Positions 29,474 through 44,511 of a stretch of 64,000 bases of DNA are shown here, piece after piece. Every line of letters begins with the position of its first letter. Position 1 is the first letter of the stretch. The stretch comes from a bacterium (GTDB lineage Bacteria > SZUA-79 > Acidulodesulfobacterales > Acidulodesulfobacteraceae), in assembly GCA_021798875.1 (NCBI GenBank), contig JAJZBN010000002.1, forward strand, positions 1-64,000. Reading direction: 5' to 3'. The notes below the pieces were generated by a model. That model saw nothing but the letters and a program-made list of their open reading frames with translations. It ran no database searches and was not told the DNA's origin. The position numbers and the translations under genes were made by a program.

Positions 29474-30367
29474 TTATAAAGTTTCCGTCAAAAAAATAAA
29501 ATGCACTATGTCGTTAAAATTAAACGATTTTATTTTATCTGCATAATCTTTAGCGCTATATTCAGAATTAAAAGCTCCAAACACGGCTGAGCCGCTGCCT
29601 GACAAAAGAGAAATTTCCGCTCCTTTTAAAATCATAGATTCTTTAATTTCTTTTATAACCTTATAATTTGCAAATATAACGTTTTCGAAATCGTTTTTTA
29701 AGTTTATTTCTTTAAAGCCTAAGTATTGAATATTATAATAATTTGACTTATTTGTCAACAAAAAATCGTCGTAATCGTCATATGCTTTTTTTGTGCTTAT
29801 TCCAAAATCCGGGACAACTAAAACTATATAGTACTTCGCAAGAACACCCGATTCAATTTCTTCTATTTTTTCGCCGAAACCTGATACTACCGCATCTTTT
29901 TCGGTAAGAAAAAAGGGGACATCCGACCCTATTTTTAATGCTATTTTCGTTAATTCCGATTTATCGAATGGGTTGCCGTAAATTTCGTTTAATTTTAATA
30001 GAAGTCCTGCTCCGTCGCTTGAACCGCCGCCTAAGCCGGCGTTAAAGGGAATATTTTTTTCTATTAATATATCAATTCCTTTGTTTCTTACATTTAGCGA
30101 ATTAAAAAAAAGCTTGGCAGTTTTTATAGTTATGTTATCCTCGTTGGAGAGCGATTGGAGTTCGCGTTCCGAAATTTTGTTTTTTAAATTTGAACCTGCA
30201 GTCGTTTTAATTTTATACTGTCCATCCGTTAAATTAAACGTTATTTTATCTTTAAGGTTAATTTTTCTCATAAGTGAAACTATTTTATGAAGTCCGCATG
30301 ATTCTTTTTTACCGATATTTAAAGAAAAGTTAACCTTGGCGGGAGCGAAATAAACTATATCTTTCAT
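29474..30367 (-). CDS. ispE: 4-diphosphocytidyl-2-C-methyl-D-erythritol kinase
   Basis: This 297-residue GHMP kinase belongs to the MEP isoprenoid pathway. It has P-A-K-V-N-F-S-L-N-I near 8-17, the ATP loop P-F-N-A-G-L-G-G-G-S-S-D-G-A near 92-105, the S-D-V-P-F-F region near 148-153, and L-S-G-S-G-S-A-V-F near 254-262. Its ATG overlaps the nuoN stop by four bases, so it is translationally coupled to the end of the complex I operon. Confidence 0.93.
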   Translation of the reverse strand: MKDIVYFAPAKVNFSLNIGKKESCGLHKIVSLMRKINLKDKITFNLTDGQYKIKTTAGSNLKNKISERELQSLSNEDNITIKTAKLFFNSLNVRNKGIDILIEKNIPFNAGLGGGSSDGAGLLLKLNEIYGNPFDKSELTKIALKIGSDVPFFLTEKDAVVSGFGEKIEEIESGVLAKYYIVLVVPDFGISTKKAYDDYDDFLLTNKSNYYNIQYLGFKEINLKNDFENVIFANYKVIKEIKESMILKGAEISLLSGSGSAVFGAFNSEYSAKDYADKIKSFNFNDIVHFIFLTETL

Positions 30368-31917
30368 AAAGAAGCTAAAGAAGCAGCAGAATAATTGGCG
30401 AAATTAATAAATATTTGAGGATAAACACCCATTATCAGTGTAAAAAAGAGGCATATTATTACGGCCAGTATTATTCCTTCGCTTATATTTCCGTTAACAA
30501 TACCGTAATTTTTACCTTCGCCGGCTATACAAGAAACATTGGAATCTTCCTTTACTGGCATGTACATTTTAACAATTATCTTAATATAGTAATATGCAGC
30601 AAAAGCGCTGTTAAGCAATGCGATAAAAACTAACCAGTAGTAACCTGATTTTACTGCAGCAGAAAATACATAAAATTTTCCCATAAATCCTCCCGTTACG
30701 GGTATTCCTGCAAGAGACAGCATAAAAAGAGCCATAGCCGCCGAAATAAACGGATATTTATAAGCTATGCCGGATAAATTTTTAATATCTAAAGAAGCTA
30801 TATCTGAATTTTCAAATATTATAACTACGGCAAAAGCTCCCGCCGTCATAAAAATATACGTAAAAAGATAAAAAAGGGTCCCAGAATAACCGTAAAAACC
30901 GCCGCCTATTATTCCTATAAGTATATAACCGGCCTGAGCTATCGAAGAATAGGCTAACAGTCTTTTAACGTTCGCAGATAAAATTGCCGCTATGTTCCCG
31001 AAAGTCATAGATAAAACTGCCAGTACCCAGAGAATATCGTTAAAATTAATAACGTTAATATTGTAAATTAGCACATAAATTCTTAAAAATACTGCAAAAG
31101 CCGCTATTTTTATTCCCGTCGCCATAAATGAAGTTATAGGAGTCGGCGCTCCATCATAAGCGTCGGGAGTCCAAGCGTGAAAAGGAAATAAAGACATTTT
31201 AAAGGCTAGTCCTACCATAAACAATAAAAGTCCGATAGAAAGATATTCGCCCATACCGCTTAAAATTGAAGCGCTGCCGTTATTACCGTAAGAAATATTT
31301 TCCAAATACGTATGTATCGAATTTAAATTCAGGTGTCCGACTGCGGCATAAATAAAAACAGACCCAAAAATTAAAAAGGCTGACGCAAAAGTTCCCAGAA
31401 TCAGATATTTTAGCGCCGCTTCCGTACTCCGAGCATTTCCTCTTATATATCCCGTAAGTATATAAGAACAAATAGACATAAATTCTAATGATATAAAGAC
31501 CATTATCAAATTATTCGATGCCACTAAAAACATCATCGCCGATATTCCGAAAAGAATAATACTGTAAAATTCGGGATAAGGTAGATCAAAATTTTCTATA
31601 TAATCCTTAGAAACAAGGACGGTTAAAAAACCGGACAGCAATATAGCGATAAATAAAAATACGTCATAGCCGTTAAACACAACGGAACCGTAAAATCCGG
31701 TAAGATTTCTACCCGACAGCATTACGACGTATAAAATAGAAAACGCTATACCTATTAAAGACAGATAATACGAATTTTTACTTTTTGCTATTTTTTCAAA
31801 AAACGTTAAAAATAGTACTATAAAAGCAAATAATATTACTACCGCTTCCGGTATAATACTAAGCATGCTTTTTTCTAAAGAATTTAATCCGTATATTGCA
31901 GGCATTATATTATGCAT
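30364..31917 (-). CDS. nuoN: NADH-quinone oxidoreductase subunit N
   Basis: This 517-residue antiporter-like proton-pumping subunit has about 14 membrane helices. It has the conserved L-E-x-M-S near 144, the Lys-containing F-K-M-S-L-F-P-F-H-A-W-T-P-D-A-Y-D near 242-258, and K-R-L-L-A-Y-S-S-I near 315. The gene overlaps nuoM by eight bases and ispE by four. Confidence 0.93.
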   Translation of the reverse strand: MHNIMPAIYGLNSLEKSMLSIIPEAVVILFAFIVLFLTFFEKIAKSKNSYYLSLIGIAFSILYVVMLSGRNLTGFYGSVVFNGYDVFLFIAILLSGFLTVLVSKDYIENFDLPYPEFYSIILFGISAMMFLVASNNLIMVFISLEFMSICSYILTGYIRGNARSTEAALKYLILGTFASAFLIFGSVFIYAAVGHLNLNSIHTYLENISYGNNGSASILSGMGEYLSIGLLLFMVGLAFKMSLFPFHAWTPDAYDGAPTPITSFMATGIKIAAFAVFLRIYVLIYNINVINFNDILWVLAVLSMTFGNIAAILSANVKRLLAYSSIAQAGYILIGIIGGGFYGYSGTLFYLFTYIFMTAGAFAVVIIFENSDIASLDIKNLSGIAYKYPFISAAMALFMLSLAGIPVTGGFMGKFYVFSAAVKSGYYWLVFIALLNSAFAAYYYIKIIVKMYMPVKEDSNVSCIAGEGKNYGIVNGNISEGIILAVIICLFFTLIMGVYPQIFINFANYSAASLASL

Positions 31918-33469
31918 TGGATAACCCCGTCTTTATTTTTATGGCATTATAAAAAATCTTGTGATGATTCAGCATAGTTAAAAAATGTAAAACCGAGGGA
32001 TCTATTCTGTCTAAAAAGGGAGCAGGATAAAATCCCATTAAAAACATTAATATTATTAAAGGCAAGACGGTTATAATTTCTCGGAGGTTCATATCGTCGA
32101 AAAACTCGAGATGATGATCGTACGGCGCGATTTGATCATGAGGATCTTGAAACATGACTCTCTGAAACATCCACAATAAGTAAACCGCCGCAAAAATAAT
32201 ACCGCTGGTTGCAATAATAGTCAAAACAGGGTATGAACGGAACGAGCCTATTAAAATCAGAAATTCACCGATAAAACCGTTTAATCCGGGCAAACCGACG
32301 GATGCCAGGACGGAAGTTAAAAATAAAACAGTTAATATAGGAGCTTTTTTTGCTATTCCTCCTAAATCTTTAATCTGTCTCGTATGCATCCTCTCGTAAA
32401 TCATACCGACAAAAAGAAATAAGGCTCCGGTATCTACCCCATGATTTAACAACTGGTAAACGGCTCCATTTATGCTTATAGCGGTAAACGCAAACAATCC
32501 TACCATTATAAAGCCCATATGCGAAACGCTTGAAAACGCAACTAATCTTTTTAGGTCTTTCTGAACTATGGAAACAAATGCTCCGTATAAAATTCCTATA
32601 ACTCCTATTACTACGATATATGGAGCTAAAATCAATGCTGCATCAGGCAGTAAAGGAATCGCAAACCTGAAAAATCCGTAAATTCCGAACTTCAATAAAA
32701 CTCCTGCAAGTATAACGCTGCCTGCGGTAGGAGCTTCCGTATGAGCATCCGGCAGCCATGTATGAAACGGAAAAATCGGGACTTTAATTGCAAATCCAAG
32801 AAATAAGGCTATAAACAGCAGTATTTGTAAATTTACCGGAATATTAGTATTATACAGCCTAATTAAATTGAACGTAAAATTGCCCGTCTGTTGATAATGT
32901 ATTATAAATATATAAATTATGCCGAATAGCATTATTAAAGATCCTGCAAGGGTATAAAGAAAAAACTTTACCGCAGAATATATTCTTTTCCCGGTGCCCC
33001 ACATTCCTATAATAAAATACATTGGTATCAGCATAAATTCCCAAAAAACGTAAAACAACAGAACATCCAACGCGGCAAAAGTACCTAACATAAATGTTTC
33101 CAACAGAAGCATTAAGATAACGAATTCTTTAACATGGTCTTTTATGTATCTGTAACTTGACAGCAAAGAAACGAACGTCAATAAAGTCGTCAAAAGAATT
33201 AAAAAAAGGCTTATGCCGTCAATGCCTAAAAAATAAGATGCTCCGAACGACTGAATCCAGTTAAATTTTTCTATGAATTGAAACTTATACGTATCAGGTT
33301 TAAAATATCTAAACAGATAGCATGAGGCGATAAACTCGATAAGCGACAGTAACGTCGCAACATTTCTTAGCAATCCTTCGTTTTTCTTATTTATAGGCAG
33401 TAATATCAATACGGCGACGGTTGGAAAAAAAATCAGAATTGTTAAGATGTATTTCATAAAAAAAGCCAT
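31910..33469 (-). CDS. nuoM: NADH-quinone oxidoreductase subunit M
   Basis: This 519-residue proton-pumping subunit has about 14 membrane helices. It has F-Y-V-F-W-E-F-M-L-I-P near 139-149 (key Glu), F-A-I-K-V-P-I-F-P-F-H-T-W-L-P-D-A-H near 225-242 and D-L-K-R-L-V-A-F-S-S-V-S-H near 302-314. The start could be residue 1 or Met5. It is separated from nuoL by 65 bases. Confidence 0.94.
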   Translation of the reverse strand: MAFFMKYILTILIFFPTVAVLILLPINKKNEGLLRNVATLLSLIEFIASCYLFRYFKPDTYKFQFIEKFNWIQSFGASYFLGIDGISLFLILLTTLLTFVSLLSSYRYIKDHVKEFVILMLLLETFMLGTFAALDVLLFYVFWEFMLIPMYFIIGMWGTGKRIYSAVKFFLYTLAGSLIMLFGIIYIFIIHYQQTGNFTFNLIRLYNTNIPVNLQILLFIALFLGFAIKVPIFPFHTWLPDAHTEAPTAGSVILAGVLLKFGIYGFFRFAIPLLPDAALILAPYIVVIGVIGILYGAFVSIVQKDLKRLVAFSSVSHMGFIMVGLFAFTAISINGAVYQLLNHGVDTGALFLFVGMIYERMHTRQIKDLGGIAKKAPILTVLFLTSVLASVGLPGLNGFIGEFLILIGSFRSYPVLTIIATSGIIFAAVYLLWMFQRVMFQDPHDQIAPYDHHLEFFDDMNLREIITVLPLIILMFLMGFYPAPFLDRIDPSVLHFLTMLNHHKIFYNAIKIKTGLSNA

Positions 33470-33534: not shown

Positions 33535-35418
33535 TTACCTTATAAAATAATAAAAAAGAACCGCCGCAACGCCTATAGAAAGCGTCAAAATATAGCTCAT
33601 CAGCATACCGTTTTGAATTTTTCTTGCTTTTACGGAAAAATTTCCAAACGCTCCGGCAATCCCGTTAACGGCGCCGTCTATTATCTTAATATCCACGACT
33701 TTCCAGAGAAAACCAAAAAAAACAAGCATTGGTTTGACGATTAGAAAATCATATATTTCGTCTATATAAACCTTATTATAAGAAAGTTCATAAACCGGTT
33801 TAAACATATTCTTTATTTTTTCAGGATCTATAGCCTTTTTAATATACAATAAATAAGCTATATATATTCCGATTAAACCCGCAGCTACGGAAATAGAGCT
33901 TAGAACATACCAAGGCATACTATTTACTATAGGAGCAAAATTTTTTGCATTCTGAAAATCTACATGCAGGAATTTATAAAATACAGAATGATTTAAAGGC
34001 GGTATTCCCAGAAAACCTATAGTAGAAGCTAAAACAGCCATTATTATCATAGGAATTGTCATAATTTTCGGGGACTCATGCACATGCAAACCTTTATCTA
34101 TTTTAGACTCTGCAAAAAAAGCTAAAAATATCAGCCTGAAAATATAAAAAGCCGTCATTAATGCCGCTACCTCTCCTACAGCCCATGCAAAATAATAACC
34201 CTTATTATAAACATCCGCTAATATAGCATCTTTAGAAAAAAATCCGGAAAAAGGAGGTATCCCCGACAGTGCAAGACCGCCTACTATGAAAGTAATTGCG
34301 GTAGTTTTCATTTTCGAGTATAGTCCGCCCATTTTTCTTAAATCCAATTCTCCGGAAAGCCCATGCATAACGCTGCCGGCCGTTAAAAAAAGCAGTCCTT
34401 TAAAAATAGCGTGGGATATAAGATGAAACATACCTGCCGTATATGAACCAATGCCAACCGCCATAAACATATAACCCAGCTGGCTGACGGTAGAATATGC
34501 TACTATTCTTTTTATATCATACTGAGTAAGAGCTATAAACGCCGCAAAAAATGCAGTAAACGTTCCTACTATAAGAACTACTTCGGAAGCCGTAGGCGAG
34601 TAAGAAAAGAGCACGTGAAATCTTGCTATCATATATACTCCGGCAGTGACCATAGTTGCTGCATGTATTAATGCGCTGACGGGAGTAGGTCCTTCCATTG
34701 CATCCGGCAGCCATACATGCAAAGGGAATTGCGCCGATTTACCTACAGCTCCAGCAAACAACAATAGCGCTATCACGGTTACGGTCAGTGTCGGCATTGT
34801 AGGCACCATAGCAAATATTTTTTCGTAATTAAGAGTTTTAGTCGTCATAAATAAAAGGAATATTCCCGTTGCAAAACCAAAATCCCCGACTCTGTTTACT
34901 ATGAAAGCTTTTTTGCCTGCATCCGAGGCAGACTTTTTTTCATACCAGAATCCTATAAGAATGTATGAACAAAATCCGACAGCTTCCCAAAATACGTATA
35001 GTAAAAGCACGTTATTAGAGATAACGAGCATTATCATCGAAAACACGAACAGATTTAAAAATGAAAAATATCTTGAAAATCCCTTATCGTCCTGCATATA
35101 TCCTATGGAGTATATATGTACCAGCGTACTTACACCTGTCACCATAACGAGCATGATTACGGAAAGTCTGTCGATAACGGCTGAAACTCCTACTTTTAAC
35201 GTTCCCGCATGCACCCATGGATAAAGAGTATCGGTAAAGCCGTGAGAATATGCGACTATAAAAAACAGAATAACTGACAGAATAAAGGATATTCCTATAA
35301 AAGCGCTGGCTAAATATCCGGAAAACCCTTTAAGATATCTTCCGAATAAACCCCATAACAGCCACCCTGCAAGCGGAAATAAAGGAATGAGCCATGTAAT
35401 AGTTGTTTTGAAATCCAT
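33535..35418 (-). CDS. nuoL: NADH-quinone oxidoreductase subunit L
   Basis: This 627-residue proton-pumping subunit has V-F-W-E-A-V-G-F-C-S-Y near 143-153, the K-S-A-Q-F-P-L-H-V-W-L-P-D-A-M-E-G-P-T-P block near 227-246 and D-I-K-R-I-V-A-Y-S-T-V-S-Q near 302-314. The long C-terminal region with the lateral amphipathic helix (from about 530) is present, as in full-length NuoL. Confidence 0.95.
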   Translation of the reverse strand: MDFKTTITWLIPLFPLAGWLLWGLFGRYLKGFSGYLASAFIGISFILSVILFFIVAYSHGFTDTLYPWVHAGTLKVGVSAVIDRLSVIMLVMVTGVSTLVHIYSIGYMQDDKGFSRYFSFLNLFVFSMIMLVISNNVLLLYVFWEAVGFCSYILIGFWYEKKSASDAGKKAFIVNRVGDFGFATGIFLLFMTTKTLNYEKIFAMVPTMPTLTVTVIALLLFAGAVGKSAQFPLHVWLPDAMEGPTPVSALIHAATMVTAGVYMIARFHVLFSYSPTASEVVLIVGTFTAFFAAFIALTQYDIKRIVAYSTVSQLGYMFMAVGIGSYTAGMFHLISHAIFKGLLFLTAGSVMHGLSGELDLRKMGGLYSKMKTTAITFIVGGLALSGIPPFSGFFSKDAILADVYNKGYYFAWAVGEVAALMTAFYIFRLIFLAFFAESKIDKGLHVHESPKIMTIPMIIMAVLASTIGFLGIPPLNHSVFYKFLHVDFQNAKNFAPIVNSMPWYVLSSISVAAGLIGIYIAYLLYIKKAIDPEKIKNMFKPVYELSYNKVYIDEIYDFLIVKPMLVFFGFLWKVVDIKIIDGAVNGIAGAFGNFSVKARKIQNGMLMSYILTLSIGVAAVLFYYFIR

Positions 35419-35438: not shown

Positions 35439-35732
35439 TTAATTTTTTAATTCGTTTGCTTTATCCATGTCGACAGTTCCTTTTTCTCTGTAAAAAGCAA
35501 CTATTATACCGAGTGCCACAGCGGCCTCTGCTGCAGCAACAACCATTACGAAAATGACGAATATATCGCCCGAAATAAGATTTAAACGGTTCGATACCGC
35601 TACAAAGCCGAGATTTGCGGCATTAAACATTAACTCTAAACTCATAAAAACAATTATTAAATTTTTTCGCATAAGAACTCCCAAGGCACCTATGCAAAAA
35701 ATAATTCCAGCCACTATTAAATAGTTATTCAT
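35439..35732 (-). CDS. nuoK: NADH-quinone oxidoreductase subunit K
   Basis: This 97-residue protein has three membrane helices. It includes the conserved membrane Glu in S-L-E-L-M-F-N-A-A-N near 31-40 and V-A-A-A-E-A-A-V-A-L-G near 65-75, the two glutamates of the proton channel. It lies between nuoL and nuoJ in the usual order. Confidence 0.94.
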   Translation of the reverse strand: MNNYLIVAGIIFCIGALGVLMRKNLIIVFMSLELMFNAANLGFVAVSNRLNLISGDIFVIFVMVVAAAEAAVALGIIVAFYREKGTVDMDKANELKN

Positions 35733-35759: not shown

Positions 35760-36263
35760 TTAAAGTTTTTTCTTGGCAAATAAATATGCACCTATAATCG
35801 CTACAAAAAGCAGTATAGAAGCAATTTCAAAAGACAGAGTATATTTAGTAAATAAAAAATTCCCTATAACCTGCGTATTGCCGATTTTATTTATTACAGA
35901 GTGAGTAAATATACCGGTAGGCTTTTTAGTCATTCCGTTTACCGTATATATAACTATTTCCCCAAACAAAACTATTGCAATAATTATTCCTATAATTTTC
36001 TGATGAAAATCAGTCTTGACGGCGTTTAATCTTGAAATATTTAAAAGCATTATAACCAATACTACAAGTACCATTATCGCTCCAGCATAAACCAGTATTT
36101 GCATTACTGCAAGAAACTGCATATCTAAAAGTACGTAAAAACCTGCAAGCGCAAAAAAACAAAGTACTAAATAAAGCGCGGAAGTCAATGGATTTTTCAT
36201 AGATATAACCATCAACGCAGAAAAAATAGCAATAAACGCAAAAATGTAGAAAAGTGCTTCCAC
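35760..36263 (-). CDS. nuoJ: NADH-quinone oxidoreductase subunit J
   Basis: This 167-residue protein has five membrane helices. It includes P-L-T-S-A-L-Y-L-V-L near 25-34 and the π-bulge helix L-V-Y-A-G-A-I-M-V-L-V-V-L-V-I-M-L near 57-73, diagnostic of NuoJ. Some 27 bases separate it from nuoK. Confidence 0.93.
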   Translation of the reverse strand: MEALFYIFAFIAIFSALMVISMKNPLTSALYLVLCFFALAGFYVLLDMQFLAVMQILVYAGAIMVLVVLVIMLLNISRLNAVKTDFHQKIIGIIIAIVLFGEIVIYTVNGMTKKPTGIFTHSVINKIGNTQVIGNFLFTKYTLSFEIASILLFVAIIGAYLFAKKKL

Positions 36264-36280
36264 GATTAATACCTCAAGTT

Positions 36281-36796
36281 TTATCTAGATTTAATTAATT
36301 TATCTATGCCGTAAATGCCTTCATCCCGCGTATAAAATGCAACCTCGTAATCGGCTCCAAGACTGATAGCTTCCTCGGGACATATTTCTTCGCAGTAACC
36401 GCAGCAGATGCATCTTAATAAATCTATTTCAAATGAAGACGGATGACGTCTTCCGTCGTTATAGATTCCTTTGTTCAAATTATCTAAACTGTGATTTTGC
36501 TTTTGTCTTTCCGTAAGTTCGTGTTCTATTCCGTAGTCCACGTAACCGGTTTTTATTTTTATCGCTTCGGAAGGACATACGGTCTCGCATAAAATACAAG
36601 ATACGCATCTTAAAGAACCGTCAGGATTAACGTTAAGATGAGGAAAAGCCCTGAATCTTTCGGCTATCCTTAGATGCTCTTTTGGATACTGAAACGTTAC
36701 GGGTTTTTGAAAAAAAGTTTTAATAGTCGTTTTAAGACCTATTAAGAAATTTTTAGAAATCTCCAAAATCGACTTTTCTTGTTTTTGGGTATTCAT
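36281..36796 (-). CDS. nuoI: NADH-quinone oxidoreductase subunit I
   Basis: This 171-residue peripheral-arm subunit carries clusters N6a and N6b: C-V-S-C-I-L-C-E-T-V-C-P near 64-75 and C-I-C-C-G-Y-C-E-E-I-C-P near 128-139. It has the characteristic NuoI start with an amphipathic helix that contacts the membrane arm. It follows nuoH by three bases. Confidence 0.94.
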   Translation of the reverse strand: MNTQKQEKSILEISKNFLIGLKTTIKTFFQKPVTFQYPKEHLRIAERFRAFPHLNVNPDGSLRCVSCILCETVCPSEAIKIKTGYVDYGIEHELTERQKQNHSLDNLNKGIYNDGRRHPSSFEIDLLRCICCGYCEEICPEEAISLGADYEVAFYTRDEGIYGIDKLIKSR

Positions 36797-36799
36797 TTG

Positions 36800-37786
36800 T
36801 TATCCTTTAAGCAAAACCATTACGAATCCTGTTACTATAATATTTGCAAGAGCTATCGGAAGCAGAAACTTCCACCCGAAATCCATAAGTTCGTCGTATC
36901 TAAGTCTTGGATACGTCCATCTCAGCCATAAATAAATAAGTATTACAAAAAATACTTTTATCAAAAACCATATAACCGGCGGTAAAAAAGGGCCCTGCCA
37001 GCCGCCTAAAAACAAAGTCGTAATTACTGCGCTGTTTACCACCATCTGAGCATATTCGCCGATAAAATAGAAAGCGAATTCCATACTGGAGTATTCCGTG
37101 TGAAAACCTGCGACGATTTCTCCTTCCGCCTCGCCTATATCAAAAGGAACCCTGTTCATTTCCGCTGTTGAAGCTATTAAATAAAGAAGAAACCCGACAG
37201 GCTGATAAACAACAAACCATATGTGAGATTGCTCGGAAACTATTTTAGACAAGCTTAGGTCTCCGGCAATCATTATTATACCTACAATAGAAAGCACAAG
37301 TGCAATTTCGTAGCTTACCATTTGAGCGGCGGTCCTTATGCCTCCAAGAAGAGAGTATTTGCTGTTAGATGCCCAACCTCCTATAACTACTCCGTAAACG
37401 CCTAAAGAAGTCAGCGCAAGAATAAAAAGTATCCCGACGTTTACGTCCGTTATTTGAAGGGGTACGATATGCCCCATAATTTTTATAGGCGCTCCGAACG
37501 GTATTACGGCGAAAGTAGTTAAAGCCGGTATTACTACTAATATAGGAGCCAAAATAAATAAAAACTTATTAGCTTCGCTAGGTATAATATCTTCTTTAAA
37601 AAATAGTTTAATGCCGTCTGCTATTGGCTGCAGAAACCCGTGAAATCCTGCTTCCATAGGACCCATTCTGTTTTGTATCCTGGCTGCGATTTTGCGTTCT
37701 AAGAGAGTTAAATAAGCGGCCGACAACAGCAGTCCTGCAAACACTATTAATATTTTAATAACCTCAGCAATAAGCCAAAAGAGCAT
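36800..37786 (-). CDS. nuoH: NADH-quinone oxidoreductase subunit H
   Basis: This 328-residue subunit has eight membrane helices and lines the quinone chamber. It has the E-R-K-I-A-A-R-I-Q-N-R-M-G-P near 30-43, L-Q-P-I-A-D-G-I-K-L-F-F-K-E near 52-65, and E-M-N-R-V-P-F-D-I-G-E-A-E-G-E near 208-222 motifs. All conserved charged residues of the E-channel loop are visible. Confidence 0.95.
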   Translation of the reverse strand: MLFWLIAEVIKILIVFAGLLLSAAYLTLLERKIAARIQNRMGPMEAGFHGFLQPIADGIKLFFKEDIIPSEANKFLFILAPILVVIPALTTFAVIPFGAPIKIMGHIVPLQITDVNVGILFILALTSLGVYGVVIGGWASNSKYSLLGGIRTAAQMVSYEIALVLSIVGIIMIAGDLSLSKIVSEQSHIWFVVYQPVGFLLYLIASTAEMNRVPFDIGEAEGEIVAGFHTEYSSMEFAFYFIGEYAQMVVNSAVITTLFLGGWQGPFLPPVIWFLIKVFFVILIYLWLRWTYPRLRYDELMDFGWKFLLPIALANIIVTGFVMVLLKG

Positions 37787-37800
37787 TTTTATGTTACCTT

Positions 37801-39924
37801 TTAATAATATAGTTTTGTTCTATCGTTAAAGTAAAATTTGCTTCTGCCTTTAATTTTATTGTAATATGTCACGTTTCCGCTTTTAACGGAATTTAAAAAA
37901 TCTTCTGTTTCTTTAAAATTATATGGACTATTAATTTTTAACGAAATTTCGGTGAATACGTCGGTTAAACTATATCTGTAAATGCCAAAATTAAATTCGT
38001 TATTTACGTTTATAATTTTGCCTTCAAAATTTTCATAATACGTATTTTCTTCCTCCAAAAAGTCTTTAACCGGTATAACAACATCCGCCATAGCCGACAA
38101 AAGGCTTGTTTTAGATGAAAAAACGGCTAAAAATTCTAGATTGGAACTGTTGCGTATTATTTCTTTTCCGTAATCGTCGTCTTGTAAATCTCCGATATAT
38201 ATGAGATTTTTAATTCTGCCTGTATCCATGCCGGCTATTATTTCTTTAAAACCGACGGCATCGTCCGAAGGATAAACGCCTGCAGTTAAAAGCCCTCTAT
38301 AGTTCGACGGCTTCATGAGAGGAAATAAATATACCGTTTTTTCCTGCTTGCGCAAAAATTGAACAATTTCCTGCAATATTAAAAAATCCTTATTCATATG
38401 TATAGCAGACATTATCGAATCTCCTATTATAAAGGAAATACAGCCTGCATCCGCAATTACTTCTATAATTGATTTGCATACATCGTCTAAATCGGTTTGT
38501 TCTTTATTTAGGGTCATCCGCATTTTATTTAAATATGTTTCAAAAAATGATGCATCTATATCTTTTTTAGAACAGGCAATGTCTTCAAATCTGGAAAAGG
38601 AACGAACCATTTCTGCCTTTCCCGTTTTTGGATTTATTATAAAAAGCCTTCCTCCATGCTCTCTGCGCGTTTTTAAAATATCGTATGCCGCAAAAGGAAT
38701 CTCGTCTTCTATACTGCCAAAATACAACATGACTTCGGAATTTTTAATATCATTTATGTTGAAATTTTCCTCGAAAGAGAACAATCTTTTAAAATTTAAA
38801 AAATTTTTTCTGTATAATTCGGAAGCGGCAATATCAAAATGTTTTAGTTTTAAAGTATTCTTAATAAATTCTAAAGAAGCTTTACCTCCGTTAATTGAAA
38901 TATTCGGCGAAATCAAAACCGCCGAAGTCTCTACGGCATTATCAGCTTGAATACCTTTCATTCTTAAACTAAACTCTTCTGCGGCTTTTTCCAGCGTAAC
39001 TTCTTCCAAGGCCGACTTTTTCTTGATATATGGATTAGCAATATAATAGCTTTCGCAATCGCCGCTAATTGCAGGATAGAAAAAACCGGATTTGCAAAGA
39101 TATCCTCCAAAAGGAGCATTCGTCCTCACTAAAGATTCATCGTGCGCGTATCTATAGTATTCTATTCTGCAGGCAGCCGAACATTTATCGCAAATCGACG
39201 AAAACGGATTTTCCTGCCAGTATCTTTCTTTAAATTTTGAAGGCTTCGAAACTAATGCGCCTACCGGACATACTTCAACGCAATTACCGCAATAATAGCA
39301 GTCTAAACGATCGGGTTCAACTGAAATTTCTTCAAAAGAACACCCTTCCGCAGGCTGAGAACCAAGCTGTGTTTTAGTGTCTGTTTTAAGTCCTATATAA
39401 CCGTTATTCCCTTTGTCTTTCATCTGAAGAAACGGATTACCGTACATGTCGCCGCAAACCCTGATGCATCTAGAACATAAAACGCATCTTGTTGCGTTGT
39501 ATTCTATTAAATCGCTTTTAAAAATTTTAGTCCTGTCTGGACAAATTTTTTTATCTTTCTGAGTAGTTACCCCAAATTCAAACGTTAAATCCTGCAAAAG
39601 ACAGTCTCCGGATTTGTCACAGACCGGACAGTCAAGCGGATGATCCAATAACAGTTGCGAAATAACTTCTTTTCTTATTTCCCATAATTTTTCCGTTTCG
39701 GTATATATTTCATATCCTTCTTTAACTTTGGCGACGCAGGAAGGCAGCGGATTTTTTAAGTCCTTAACCTCCACTACGCAAACCCTGCAGGAACCTATCG
39801 GTTTGATTCTTTTTAGATAGCACAAAACGGGTATTTTGATTCCCGCTTGAGAGGCAGCTTCTAAAATAGTCAATCCTGACTGAGTTATAATTTTTTTTCC
39901 GTTTATAGTGATTTCTATATCCAT
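37801..39924 (-). CDS. nuoG: NADH-quinone oxidoreductase subunit G-like
   Basis: In this 707-residue protein, an N-terminal [2Fe-2S] ferredoxin domain (Cys in V-L-C-Y, G-S-C-R-V-C, P-S-C) is followed by the His-ligated cluster motif H-P-L-D-C-P-V-C-D-K-S-G-D-C near 97-110. Two 4Fe-4S sites come next, C-V-L-C-S-R-C-I-R-V-C and C-Y-Y-C-G-N-C-V-E-V-C-P. The molybdopterin-oxidoreductase-like part starts with C-D-K-C-S-A-A-C and is a degenerate body, as in all NuoG. It is preceded by the flavoprotein gene with nine bases between. It would pass electrons from whatever flavin module is used here to NuoI. Confidence 0.9.
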   Translation of the reverse strand: MDIEITINGKKIITQSGLTILEAASQAGIKIPVLCYLKRIKPIGSCRVCVVEVKDLKNPLPSCVAKVKEGYEIYTETEKLWEIRKEVISQLLLDHPLDCPVCDKSGDCLLQDLTFEFGVTTQKDKKICPDRTKIFKSDLIEYNATRCVLCSRCIRVCGDMYGNPFLQMKDKGNNGYIGLKTDTKTQLGSQPAEGCSFEEISVEPDRLDCYYCGNCVEVCPVGALVSKPSKFKERYWQENPFSSICDKCSAACRIEYYRYAHDESLVRTNAPFGGYLCKSGFFYPAISGDCESYYIANPYIKKKSALEEVTLEKAAEEFSLRMKGIQADNAVETSAVLISPNISINGGKASLEFIKNTLKLKHFDIAASELYRKNFLNFKRLFSFEENFNINDIKNSEVMLYFGSIEDEIPFAAYDILKTRREHGGRLFIINPKTGKAEMVRSFSRFEDIACSKKDIDASFFETYLNKMRMTLNKEQTDLDDVCKSIIEVIADAGCISFIIGDSIMSAIHMNKDFLILQEIVQFLRKQEKTVYLFPLMKPSNYRGLLTAGVYPSDDAVGFKEIIAGMDTGRIKNLIYIGDLQDDDYGKEIIRNSSNLEFLAVFSSKTSLLSAMADVVIPVKDFLEEENTYYENFEGKIINVNNEFNFGIYRYSLTDVFTEISLKINSPYNFKETEDFLNSVKSGNVTYYNKIKGRSKFYFNDRTKLYY

Positions 39925-39933
39925 AATGATGTC

Positions 39934-41841
39934 CTAATCCTCAAACTTAACAAGCATAAGATAATAACATCTCATGCATCTCGTCGCTTCGTAAACCGCA
40001 TCGTCGTTCGTAAACCCTTTATCTGCTTCTTCAAAACTTTTTATACGTTCTTTAACTGGCTTAATTATCTGTTTTGGTGCGAAATTTCCCGGCGGCATAT
40101 CGGCATTTTTAATTACTTCGTTTTTATCGTAAACGCCTATAGCCTCAAATAGATTTTCAAAAAGACAGTCGTCCGTAGGAGTGAACGTTCCTGTTCTTAT
40201 ATACTGGTCTATTCTTCTTGCAGCATTTTTTCCGTCCCTATTTGAATCAACTATGCTGATAGGTCCTGTTAAAGCGTCGCCTCCGGCAAAAACGCCTGGC
40301 ATATCGGTCATAAAAGTAAATTTGTCGGCAGAAATAGTCTTTCCTTTCACTATTTTTATTTCAGGTACGTCTTTAAGACAGTCGAAATCGGGCACCTGTC
40401 CTATAGCCATAATAAAATCATCCGTTTCTATGTCAAAATCGGTATCCGGCACTTCTACCGGACTTTTCCTTCCGCTTGCATCTATTTCACCAAGTTTCAT
40501 TTTTCTGCATCTTACGCCAGTAACTCTGCCGTTTTCATGAAGAATAGCAACCGGATTCGTCAAAAATTCAAACTTAACTCCTTCTTCAATCGCCGTTTCA
40601 AGTTCGTCGTATGCAGCCGGCATCTCTTCTTTACTTCTTCTGTAAACTACCGTTACGTCTTTATACCCTAACCTTACGGCAGTCCTGCAGCAGTCTATAG
40701 CGACGTTCCCGCCGCCCTCTATAATAACTTTTTTGCCAATATCAATTTTTTGTCCAAGATTTACTTTTCTTAAAAATTCGACTCCGTCGAAAAAACCTTT
40801 TAAATTATCGTTTTCGCCGGGCAGATTAATATTCTGTCCTAAATGTGCTCCTATTCCAAGGAATACTGCTTTGAATCCCTGCCCGAAAAGGTCTTTTATA
40901 GTAAAATCTTTCCCGAGTCTGCTGTTTAACTTATATTCTATTCCGGTGGAAAGTATATAACCTATTTCCGCATCTAAAAAATGTTTTGGAAGCCTGAATT
41001 TAGGAATTCCGACGTTCATCATGCCGCCAAGAACGGGTAGAGCTTCGAATATAACTGGTTTATACCCCATTAATCTCAAATAATAAGCGCAGCTTAAACC
41101 TGCCGGACCGGAACCTACTATAGCAACTTTAATATTATTATCTTTTATTTTAAAATCAGGCTTATAATTGGAATAAAAAACTTCGTCTGCCGCAAATCTT
41201 CTTATTAGGCAAATTTGAATGGAATCATCTATATTTGCCCTGCGGCAGTTATCCTGACACGGGTGAAAACAAGTTCTTCCTAATATTCCTGCAAGCGGAG
41301 TGTTTCTTCTTGCCGACTGTAAAGCGTCTTCATATCTGCCGTCCCTGACTCTTTCCATCCAGTTAGGTATATCTAATTTTGAAGGGCAACCGTTAATACA
41401 GGGAGCGGTAACGTGAGCTATATAATCCCCTCTTTTTATTATTTCTTTACTTTTTATAACTTTTTCAAAGTCTTCCCTGTAATTATCGATAAGTTCAACT
41501 ACGGAAGAAGGTCCTATAGTTCCCACGGTACATTTTGAAGACGACATAATCCAATCACAAAGGTTTCTTAACCTATCTATGTCTTCAATTATAGCTTTTC
41601 CTATGCAGATATTTTCTAAAATTTCCGAAGCTACGTCGGTTCCATTCTTGCAAGGAACACACACGCCGCATGATATTTTCTGCAATTCTTGCATGTAGCA
41701 TCTTGCAAGATCAACCTTATTGTCTTTTTCGTCCAATAAAGCTACGCCCGTCCAATTTAATACAGACGATATTTTTTTATGACCCGAACGTTCAAAAAAA
41801 TTCAGATCTAACCTGTCGCTTAATTTATCTATTATTTTCAT
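39934..41841 (-). CDS. Fusion of the NuoF Fe-S (N3) domain with a GltD-like NAD(P)H:flavin oxidoreductase
   Basis: From the preferred ATG at 41841 the protein has 635 residues. A longer frame to 41904 would overlap nuoD by 50 bases. Residues 50-130 match only the C-terminal domain of NuoF, with the N3 cluster ligands C-G-V-C-V-P-C (58-64) and K-C-T-V-G (104). The NADH/FMN Rossmann and SLBB domains of NuoF are absent. From about 145 the protein is like the glutamate synthase small subunit: C-I-N-G-C-P, C-x3-C-x3-C (191-199), FAD loop G-S-G-P-A-G (243-248), an NAD(P)H loop G-G-G-N-V-A, and a final G-G-D-A-L-T-G-P. A C-terminal C-M-R-C follows. It sits between nuoD and nuoG, where nuoE/nuoF normally lie, and so is the likely electron-input subunit. 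Donor preference (NADH or NADPH) is not readable. Confidence 0.85.
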   Translation of the reverse strand: MKIIDKLSDRLDLNFFERSGHKKISSVLNWTGVALLDEKDNKVDLARCYMQELQKISCGVCVPCKNGTDVASEILENICIGKAIIEDIDRLRNLCDWIMSSSKCTVGTIGPSSVVELIDNYREDFEKVIKSKEIIKRGDYIAHVTAPCINGCPSKLDIPNWMERVRDGRYEDALQSARRNTPLAGILGRTCFHPCQDNCRRANIDDSIQICLIRRFAADEVFYSNYKPDFKIKDNNIKVAIVGSGPAGLSCAYYLRLMGYKPVIFEALPVLGGMMNVGIPKFRLPKHFLDAEIGYILSTGIEYKLNSRLGKDFTIKDLFGQGFKAVFLGIGAHLGQNINLPGENDNLKGFFDGVEFLRKVNLGQKIDIGKKVIIEGGGNVAIDCCRTAVRLGYKDVTVVYRRSKEEMPAAYDELETAIEEGVKFEFLTNPVAILHENGRVTGVRCRKMKLGEIDASGRKSPVEVPDTDFDIETDDFIMAIGQVPDFDCLKDVPEIKIVKGKTISADKFTFMTDMPGVFAGGDALTGPISIVDSNRDGKNAARRIDQYIRTGTFTPTDDCLFENLFEAIGVYDKNEVIKNADMPPGNFAPKQIIKPVKERIKSFEEADKGFTNDDAVYEATRCMRCYYLMLVKFED

Positions 41842-41854
41842 AATTAATTTATTT

Positions 41855-43054
41855 TTATCTGTCAACTTCGCCGAGTAATATATCGACGCTCCCCATAATT
41901 GCAATTAAATCCGCTACCATATGTCCTTTAACCATTTCGTTAAGAGCGCTTATATTGCAAAACGACGGCGGTCTGACTCTCATTCTGTATGGGAACGCAG
42001 AACCGTCGGAAATTAGATAAAAACCTAATTCTCCTCTGGGATTTTCTATAGAAACGTAAGCTTCTCCTTTTGGAGGTTTAATTCCTTCCATCCCGTATTT
42101 AAAATTAAAAATCATACCTTCCATGGTAGTCAAAGCCCTTTTCTTAGTCGGTTTAACGTATAACGGATATTCGTCATGGCTTAAATATTCGCCTTCGGGA
42201 ATATTTTCTACAGCCTGCGATATTATCTTAAGGCTCTGCCTCATTTCTTCTATCCTTATTACGTATCTGTCGTATGTATCGCCGTTATCTCCTATCGGCA
42301 CTTCAAAATCGAAGTCTTCGTAACTGGAATAAGGATTTACTTTACGTACGTCATATTTAACTCCGCTGCCTCTAAGAGAAGGTCCCGTCAATGCAAAATT
42401 TATCGCGCTTTCGGCTGAAATTATTCCTAAATTTTTTGTTCTTTCGAGCCATATTTTATTTTTAGTAAGAAGCGCTTCATATTCATTTATCTTTTCGGGA
42501 AAAATCTTTATGAAATCCTTGGTTTTCTCTATGAAATCATTATGAAAATCCATTGCAAGACCGCCTACGCGGAAAAAAGAAGGCGTCATCCTTTGACCCG
42601 TAACTGTTTCTATTATATCCAATATTAATTCTCTTTCGCGGAAACAGTATAGAAACTCGGTTAATGCGCCTAAATCTACGGCATGCGTCGCAAGCCAGAC
42701 GAGATGCGAACTTATCCTGGTAAATTCGGCTAAAATCACGCGTACATATTCAGCCCTCTTAGGCGCTTTAACTCCGCAAAGCTTTTCTACCGCCAATATA
42801 TAGCCGAGATTGTTTGATGCGCCTGCTACGTAATCCATTCTGTCGGTAATAGTTTCAGCCTGGTGATAAGTTTTATATTCTGCATATTTTTCCATACTGG
42901 TATGCAAATAACCTATTATAGGCTCTGCATGAATTATGGTTTCTCCGTCTAATTGAACTAAAACCCTTAGAACTCCGTGCGTAGCCGGATGCGAAGGACC
43001 TATATTCAATACGAACTTATCGTTTTCTATAAGAAAATCTTTCTGCGCAATCAT
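41855..43054 (-). CDS. nuoD: NADH-quinone oxidoreductase subunit D
   Basis: This 399-residue 49-kDa subunit forms the quinone site with NuoB. It starts N-I-G-P-S-H-P-A-T-H-G-V-L-R near 17-30, has H-T-S-M-E-K near 50, R-M-D-Y-V near 67-71, and ends with the conserved I-L-G-E-V-D-R. NuoC and NuoD are separate genes here, not fused. The stop lies 13 bases from the start of the flavoprotein fusion. Confidence 0.95.
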   Translation of the reverse strand: MIAQKDFLIENDKFVLNIGPSHPATHGVLRVLVQLDGETIIHAEPIIGYLHTSMEKYAEYKTYHQAETITDRMDYVAGASNNLGYILAVEKLCGVKAPKRAEYVRVILAEFTRISSHLVWLATHAVDLGALTEFLYCFRERELILDIIETVTGQRMTPSFFRVGGLAMDFHNDFIEKTKDFIKIFPEKINEYEALLTKNKIWLERTKNLGIISAESAINFALTGPSLRGSGVKYDVRKVNPYSSYEDFDFEVPIGDNGDTYDRYVIRIEEMRQSLKIISQAVENIPEGEYLSHDEYPLYVKPTKKRALTTMEGMIFNFKYGMEGIKPPKGEAYVSIENPRGELGFYLISDGSAFPYRMRVRPPSFCNISALNEMVKGHMVADLIAIMGSVDILLGEVDR

Positions 43055-43074: not shown

Positions 43075-43608
43075 TTATTTAATTTGTTCTAAATCGATAT
43101 AACCTGGAGCATCCATTTCAATTTCGTGAGGCTCGGGTCTCTTCCTTAAAGGATAATCTTTAAGAAGCGGATGTCCGACCCAGTCGTCAGGATTTAAAAT
43201 TCTTTTTAAATCCGGGTGTCCTTTAAATTTCAGCCCGAACATATCGTAAACTTCTCGTTCAAACCAGTCTGCCGAATTATAAACCGACGTCAAACTGGGA
43301 TATTCCGGTTCGTCTATTTTGCTCCAAATTTTTATAAAAACCCTGAAGTTATTTTTTATGGAATAAAAATTATATATTACTTCTATTCTTTCCGCTCTTT
43401 TTGGGTAATCGACCGCAAACAGGTCCGAAAGCATATTAAATTCTAATCTTGCATCGTTTTTTAGGAATAAAGCAAACTTTAGCAAATCGTCTTTTTTAAT
43501 TCTTATATGAGTGTCGCCGTTTATAACGTCCGAAGCTATAACGGATTGCGGCATTGACTCTTTAATAACGGTTAATGCGAACATTATATCCATGTCGTCG
43601 GCTTTCAT
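43075..43608 (-). CDS. nuoC: NADH-quinone oxidoreductase subunit C
   Basis: This 177-residue 30-kDa subunit shows [23 protein letters not shown] near 103-125 and [13 protein letters not shown]-x-G-H-P-L near 130-147. Two early Met codons (residues 1 and 6) are possible starts. Some 20 bases separate it from nuoD. Confidence 0.94.
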
Positions 43609-43627: not shown

Positions 43628-44140
43628 TTAATATTTTTTATTGCTGTCTATATGTAATTTAGGCGGCTCTTCATGCTTCAAAGTGCCTTTTTCTATTTTT
43701 TCTTGAAGTTTTACTATTCCGTAAATAAGAGCTTCTGGACGCGGAGGACAGCCTGGTATATAAACATCGACAGGAATAATAGTATCGACTCCCTGAACAA
43801 TGCTGTAAACATTAAAAAGTCCTCCCGAACATGCACAGTCGCCCATGGCAATAACCCATTTAGGATTAGGCATCTGGTCGTAAATTCTTTTAACCATCGG
43901 TGCCATTTTATATGAAACCCTGCCGGACACTATTATAAGGTCGGACTGTCGAGGACTGGACCTGAATATAAGTCCGAGCCTGTCGAAGTCGTATCTTGAC
44001 GATGCTACAGTCATCATTTCGATAGCGCAGCATGCCAACCCGAAAGTTGCAGGCCATATAGACCACTTTCTGCCCCATGAAACAATTTTATCCAATGAAG
44101 CTGTAATTATATTGTCTCCGAGATGCTCTTCTATTCCCAT
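43628..44140 (-). CDS. nuoB: NADH-quinone oxidoreductase subunit B
   Basis: This 170-residue PSST subunit carries the terminal N2 cluster: tandem cysteines in G-L-A-C-C-A-I-E-M near 34-42, C-A-C-S-G-G near 102-107 and the final C-P-P-R-P near 132-136. Its ATG overlaps the nuoA stop by ten bases. Confidence 0.96.
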
Positions 44141-44511
44141 TTAAGCGCTCCTTTTAGCCATACGTAAAGCAGACCTATTACCAATATCACTATAAATAAA
44201 AACATTTCGACAAAACCGAGTATTCCAAGGTGCGAAAATATAACCGCCCAAGGAAATAAAAAAAGAGCTTCTATGTCGAAAAGAAGAAAAAATATAGCTA
44301 TTAGATAAAACTTTACGTCGAATTTAACGTGGGGTTCGCCGGTAGGCTCGACGCCGCATTCATATGCTTTTAATTTGCCGGATTCGTATGTCTTTTTTCC
44401 TATAAAATTAGATATTAAAATGGTAAAGACAGCAAATATGATTGCTATAACAAGCATTATAAATATTGGCAGAAAAGAAATTAAACCGTTGTTGTTTATA
44501 CTATTATTCAT
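44131..44511 (-). CDS. nuoA: NADH-quinone oxidoreductase subunit A
   Basis: This 126-residue protein has three membrane helices and the conserved Y-E-C-G-V-E-P-T-G near 45-53 and [14 protein letters not shown] near 75-88. It is the first gene of the complex I operon. The 156-base upstream gap holds a perfect 32-base palindrome at 44558-44589. Confidence 0.95.

Follow-up and report, generated by a model that had tools for sequence, protein, structure and literature searches.

The window analysed here comprises 64,000 nucleotides from the genome (2.5 Mb, 97.3% complete) of a member of Candidatus Acidulodesulfobacterales (SZUA-79), an order of acid-mine bacteria. It contains a complex I (NDH-1) gene cluster on the minus strand, in which nuoA, B, C, D, a fusion gene and nuoG, H, I, J, K, L, M, N follow each other contiguously with gaps of -10 to 65 bases. 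Domain matches identify nuoA (44131..44511), nuoB (43628..44140), nuoC (43075..43608), nuoD (41855..43054), nuoG (37801..39924), nuoH (36800..37786), nuoI (36281..36796), nuoJ (35760..36263) and nuoK (35439..35732). The genes nuoL (33535..35418) and nuoM (31910..33469) were assigned by their translations and by the relatives' orthologues at the same place, and nuoN (30364..31917) by its translation and its resemblance to the proteins that occupy the NuoN position at other complex I loci. The Q and P modules are all present in nuoA-D and nuoH-N. NuoG (707 amino acids) carries N1b, N5, N4 and N7-type cysteine motifs and NuoI two [4Fe-4S] motifs. A first-pass annotation of the window had listed nuoA-D and nuoG-N as all present in order, and this is confirmed.

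At the position of nuoE and nuoF lies the fusion gene (39934..41841, minus strand), in whose product a NuoF reduced to its N3 domain continues into a GltD-like FAD/NAD(P)H module. The plus-strand frame of the same stretch is riddled with stops. The minus-strand open reading frame containing the gene extends from 39934 to 41904 and opens at TTG; the 21 codons at its start, which overlap nuoD, show no conservation across the group. As the alignment of relatives sets in with the ATG at 41841, the fusion protein has 635 amino acids and the gene limits assigned at first pass are exact.

Concerning the domain composition of the fusion, Pfam reveals NADH_4Fe-4S (PF10589, 9e-18), Fer4_20 (PF14691, 4e-19) and Pyr_redox_2 (PF07992, 3e-24) in this order, in agreement with the original description of one protein joining the NuoF N3 domain to a GltD-like enzyme. 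Neither Complex1_51K nor SLBB was found in the fusion with Pfam; the NuoF FMN/NADH fold is absent. In NCBIfam, TIGR01959 NuoF is matched only in part, over the last 109 positions of the model, and GltD-like families are matched partially as well, all below cut-off. The NuoF-type N3 domain (41461..41712; PF10589 above cut-off) contains Cys58, 61, 64 and 104. The Fer4_20 region (41176..41409) contains Cys148, 152, 191, 195 and 199 for two [4Fe-4S] clusters, as well as Arg214. The Pyr_redox_2 region (40255..41130) contains the FAD site GSGPAG and the NAD(P)H site GGGNVA; its second Rossmann domain bears the NADP(H)-specificity motif YRR at residues 400-402 (40636..40644). A CMRC motif (39967..39978) with Cys622 and Cys625 lies near the C terminus. 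The four N3 cysteines, the five Fer4_20 cysteines and both C-terminal ones are invariant in 14 relatives. The fusion hereby shows the layout of GltD-like NAD(P)H dehydrogenases, with two [4Fe-4S] sites and Rossmann domains for FAD and NAD(P)H. The different flavin suspected earlier is borne out at the level of sequence motifs, a predicted GltD-type FAD site replacing the FMN of NuoF.

Among solved structures, the N-terminal part of the fusion matches HydB and NuoF chains across the N3 domain, and the remaining part has matches in NfnA of 9n5u, 9bov, StnC (8oh5), NfnB (4ylf) and GltD. Residues 595-625 have their aligned counterpart in residues 14-45 of NfnB/NfnI-L, so that an N-terminal segment of NfnB is shifted to the C terminus in the fusion, as in StnC. 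The arginine near the FAD N5 (NfnB R201) is conserved as Arg283. Arg214 takes the place of the StnC ligand Lys170; other family members have Lys there, and NfnB has Glu. An AlphaFold model of the fusion (14 sequences) was of low confidence, with a mean pLDDT of 56.

The YRR motif is invariant in the group and is also present in 28/28 compact or NuoF-GltD fusions compared. Loeffler et al. (PMC7596348) tied YRR to the use of NADP(H), on kinetic grounds for DsrL and on structural grounds for NfnB. By analogy, the fusion is predicted to be specific for NADPH, not NADH; the first-pass annotation had considered an NADPH preference, to be read from the second Rossmann loop. DsrL of the same order carries YNK in place of YRR (PMC7596348). 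The DsrL encoded in the present genome (contig C90, 1402-3114, L004) has YNK as well, predicting use of NAD(H), opposite to the fusion. Judged by these motifs, a DsrL of the NAD type and a complex I of the NADP type seem to coexist in this genome.

Across the present genome (97.3% complete) neither PF01512 (NuoF core) nor PF01257 (NuoE) was found, and its sole PF10589 protein is the fusion; the NuoF FMN/NADH core and NuoE are missing genome-wide, as had been noted for the operon. In each of the 12 related MAG contigs inspected, the fusion is flanked by nuoD and nuoG (same locus order); a comparison with the operons of relatives had been proposed at first pass. Relatives among the GenBank matches include Candidatus Acididesulfobacter diazotrophicus AP1 and bacterium SZUA-79. 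Moreover, 28 of the 30 phylum genomes examined encode the fusion, the two without it being 86% and 59% complete. A MAG artefact was rejected on account of this recurrence of the gene order and of the fusion.

We consider it likely that the fusion is a dedicated electron-input (or output) subunit of complex I, replacing NuoE and NuoF. From the make-up of the module we infer the following order of electron transfer. NADPH would reduce the FAD of the GltD-like domain, from where electrons would go singly via two [4Fe-4S] clusters to the NuoF-derived N3 cluster. N3 would dock on NuoG, the presumed partner of the fusion, beside N1b, and from N1b electrons would pass along the NuoG chain to NuoI, NuoB and quinone, the membrane subunits pumping protons. 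In the route proposed initially, NAD(P)H to FAD to N3 to NuoG, the N3 domain fits the role of docking on NuoG; the two [4Fe-4S] clusters between FAD and N3 had been omitted. In principle the chain would be reversible, and these presumed autotrophs could make NADPH from quinol by means of the proton motive force; a large pH gradient could conceivably drive electrons from quinol to NADP+. Tan et al. (PMC6776010) describe the order as facultatively anaerobic autotrophs with the rTCA cycle and nitrogen fixation. Cells of this kind require NADPH. It is plausible that the fusion runs in reverse, as was already considered in the first-pass annotation.

Comparison with known systems reveals where the fusion resembles them and where it departs from them. 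With canonical bacterial complex I (14-subunit NDH-1) the operon shares nuoA-D and nuoG-N, their order, the Fe-S motifs and the N3 domain, but it lacks NuoE (N1a) and the NuoF FMN/NADH domain and has a GltD-like FAD module instead. SfrB, a subunit of the Geobacter NADPH:Fe(III) oxidoreductase SfrAB, and StnC are known NADPH subunits (PMC7483475), and an SfrB-like protein is a partner of [FeFe]-hydrogenase in Pelobacter (PMC3543383). These enzymes likewise combine a GltD-like NADPH subunit with a NuoG-like or hydrogenase partner, and we expect SfrB to have the same N3-GltD layout; unlike the proposed role of the fusion, they are soluble and stand outside complex I. In the Stn transhydrogenase (PDB 8oh5; PMC10482914), StnC feeds NADPH electrons into a NuoG-type chain and its FAD is non-bifurcating. 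The C-terminal CxxC segment of StnC aligns at the same place as that of the fusion, which shows the Stn-type features (Lys/Arg ligand, C-terminal CxxC), with Arg as a variant of the StnC Lys. However, the Stn GltD part is fused to NuoG, not to N3, and StnA/StnB keep NuoE/NuoF parts. In the Campylobacterota, nuoXY are found for nuoEF, with reported coupling to flavodoxin or ferredoxin (PMC6682613). There nuoEF are thus likewise replaced at the same position, but the excerpted description contains no GltD module. The 11-subunit complex I is also devoid of NuoE and NuoF, but it lacks NuoG as well and its donor is unknown, whereas the present operon itself codes for a putative donor subunit.

To assess recurrence of the fusion, 386 genomes, including 356 from outside the phylum, were searched with a profile of it; counts refer to the matches listed and are lower bounds. 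A compact N3-GltD fusion of about 650-690 amino acids is found in at least 14 outside-phylum genomes and is flanked by complex I genes in at least seven. The gene order in genome G263 is nuoA-D, fusion, a 350-aa NuoG, a 539-aa molybdopterin-domain protein and nuoH-N; G125 has the same arrangement as far as its contig extends, and both genomes belong to the same class. G346 encodes nuoA-D, fusion, two NuoG proteins and nuoH-N, G362 the fusion with nuoG, B, C, D, H and L, and three genomes of one family the fusion with nuoG and nuoJ-N. In G125, G263, G346 and many genomes of the G346 phylum, the fusion takes the place of NuoE-NuoF between nuoD and nuoG. PF01512 proteins were sought in G125 and G346, and none were found. 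PF01512 matches of about 450 amino acids in G263, G052 and G362 were rejected as NuoF, being RnfC or RnfC-like; PF01512 alone over-counts NuoF. A scan of viral contigs for fusion relatives found none. At loci L096 (6268-7887) and L089 (5941-7524), a protein of 527-539 amino acids with Molybdopterin and Molydop_binding domains lies between a short NuoG (350 amino acids) and nuoH; it may represent either a piece of a divided NuoG or an active component akin to formate dehydrogenase. L088 has a trio of this type (fusion, short NuoG, molybdopterin protein) without nuo genes.

In the G346 phylum the protein is present in 46/200 genomes and 24/47 genera, and the fusion adjoins nuoD and NuoG in at least 12 of the 13 regions inspected. 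The two NuoG proteins of G346 match PRK08493, which we take to be the Campylobacterota NuoG model, with 1090 and 898 bits (cut-off 591), and this phylum looks like Campylobacterota. At its loci L101 and L165-L176 two NuoG genes follow each other, and the N3 motif of the fusion has glycine for its third cysteine (CGRCAPG or CGRCTPG), so that the N3 ligand set may differ there. A second type of fusion, of about 1020-1100 amino acids, joins a whole NuoF to GltD (L102-L107). One of these loci, L107 (G136 contig C33, 8987-18746), is a complex I cluster with canonical NuoE, NuoF and NuoG, a second NuoE, a NuoF-GltD fusion (1026 amino acids) and a molybdopterin-type NuoG/FdhA (925 amino acids); this single complex I may have two input modules.

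On a tree of 30 rows, the compact fusions form one group (88/90) and the NuoF-GltD type another (98/97). The link to complex I changes at least four times on this tree, which is blind to gain versus loss. A single grouping, and with it one origin, of all complex I-linked copies was rejected by the AU test (p = 0.0009), with long branches and sparse sampling. The swap of NuoE and NuoF recurs in unrelated bacterial groups, which suggests that complex I can change the part through which its fuel enters. The remaining outside-phylum compact fusions, at least seven, pair with NuoG- or FdhA-like proteins. Since closely related fusions elsewhere partner formate dehydrogenase-like proteins or hydrogenase, the module is not intrinsically a part of complex I, a point against the proposed subunit role. 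In a Clostridiales MAG (L018, 2162-5820), a compact N3-GltD fusion immediately precedes an [FeFe]-hydrogenase whose N terminus resembles NuoG, a possible NADPH-linked hydrogenase. HydDB (PMC5037454) has a group A2 of 'glutamate synthase-linked' [FeFe]-hydrogenases, a class defined by the GltD domain only; the fusion of L018 has the N3-GltD layout seen in our operon, but its partner is the hydrogenase.

As an alternative, fusion and NuoG might make up a soluble NADPH oxidoreductase of their own, of the SfrAB kind, that is only co-transcribed with the nuo genes, the membrane part being fed by ferredoxin or another carrier. Fusion relatives do pair with NuoG/FdhA-like proteins outside nuo loci (L088, L091, L092, L095, L098-L100), and 11-subunit complex I enzymes without known donor exist (PMC11238625). 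However, the cluster holds a single nuoG, in its normal place between fusion and nuoH and with normal cluster motifs, and the gene order is kept across the phylum and independently in other lineages. We regard a soluble enzyme as unlikely.

We give a still lower probability to an NfnB-like bifurcation or confurcation of electrons between NADPH, quinone and ferredoxin. The fusion shares the fold family of NfnB and its arginine near the FAD N5, but the operon encodes neither NfnA nor a second flavin branch, and the genome has its own NfnAB. Moreover, the eighth ligand position is occupied by Arg (Lys in other members), resembling the non-bifurcating StnC and not NfnB with its Glu as ligand of the proximal cluster, which favours a simple electron relay. 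The ability to bifurcate that was envisaged at first pass is therefore not borne out.

That the GltD part of the fusion serves glutamate synthase is very improbable. A Glu_synthase protein is present in 29/30 phylum genomes, and the present genome encodes a split glutamate synthase on contig C109 (L142 5618-9071) as three proteins, namely GXGXG, Fe-S/synthase and glutaminase (GATase_2). No GltD gene was found beside these genes, and a stand-alone GltD was ruled out among the other GltD homologues of the genome, which are NfnB beside NfnA and DsrL after dsrAB. The split synthase and the lack of a stand-alone GltD speak for this reading; yet the synthase lies on a different contig and bears its own ferredoxin-type cysteine motifs, whereas the fusion has an N3 domain and lies within the nuo operon in every relative inspected. 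Service to glutamate synthase, which the first-pass annotation had named as evidence against its reading, is thus weakly founded.

NuoE-like and NuoF-like domains co-occur in the same 18/30 phylum genomes; the other 12, including the present one and others 95-100% complete, have neither. Five inspected NuoE/NuoF-like clusters adjoin a formate dehydrogenase alpha-like gene, with TIGR01591 above cut-off in three. These three (L150 5762-10515, L151 3555-9503, L152 4883-10202) are NAD-linked formate dehydrogenase clusters, NuoE/NuoF-like plus FdhA, and the pairs of L153 and L154 have the same layout. The canonical nuoE and nuoF sought on the advice of the first-pass annotation are thus absent here and linked to formate dehydrogenase in the relatives inspected. 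Least probable of all is that such a pair encoded elsewhere feeds complex I with the fusion as an accessory: occurrence in 18 genomes speaks for it, but the 12 genomes without either domain and the formate dehydrogenase neighbours speak against it, and for the present genome it is refuted up to the roughly 3% of missing sequence.

In the complex I literature searched, including PMC11238625 and PMC6682613, we found no GltD-type input; the search was limited and priority is unproven. The module type is known from SfrB, StnC and hydrogenase partners; its apparent use as NADP(H) module of complex I was unreported within that search. The excerpted text of Tan et al. (PMC6776010) lists nuoE, nuoF and nuoG as missing in the group and does not mention the fusion. 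This part of the published description is corrected here, as nuoG is present and the fusion lies in the operon. The donor of complex I enzymes without NuoE and NuoF is a standing question, and an attempt to find one protein that could serve them all as donor is reported to have been unsuccessful (PMC11238625). With the donor subunit encoded in the operon and its cofactor predictable, this question becomes testable with one protein. Beyond the group, we tentatively propose, at somewhat less than even odds, that an NADP(H)-specific GltD-N3 module replaced the NADH module in several unrelated groups. Complex I would then be a docking platform with interchangeable inputs and, with this module, a proton-pumping NADPH:quinone oxidoreductase, running in chemolithoautotrophs mainly backwards as a proton-driven NADP+ reductase. 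If this is true, NADP(H) and not NADH should be the partner of quinone in electron-balance models of autotrophs from acid mines and vents.
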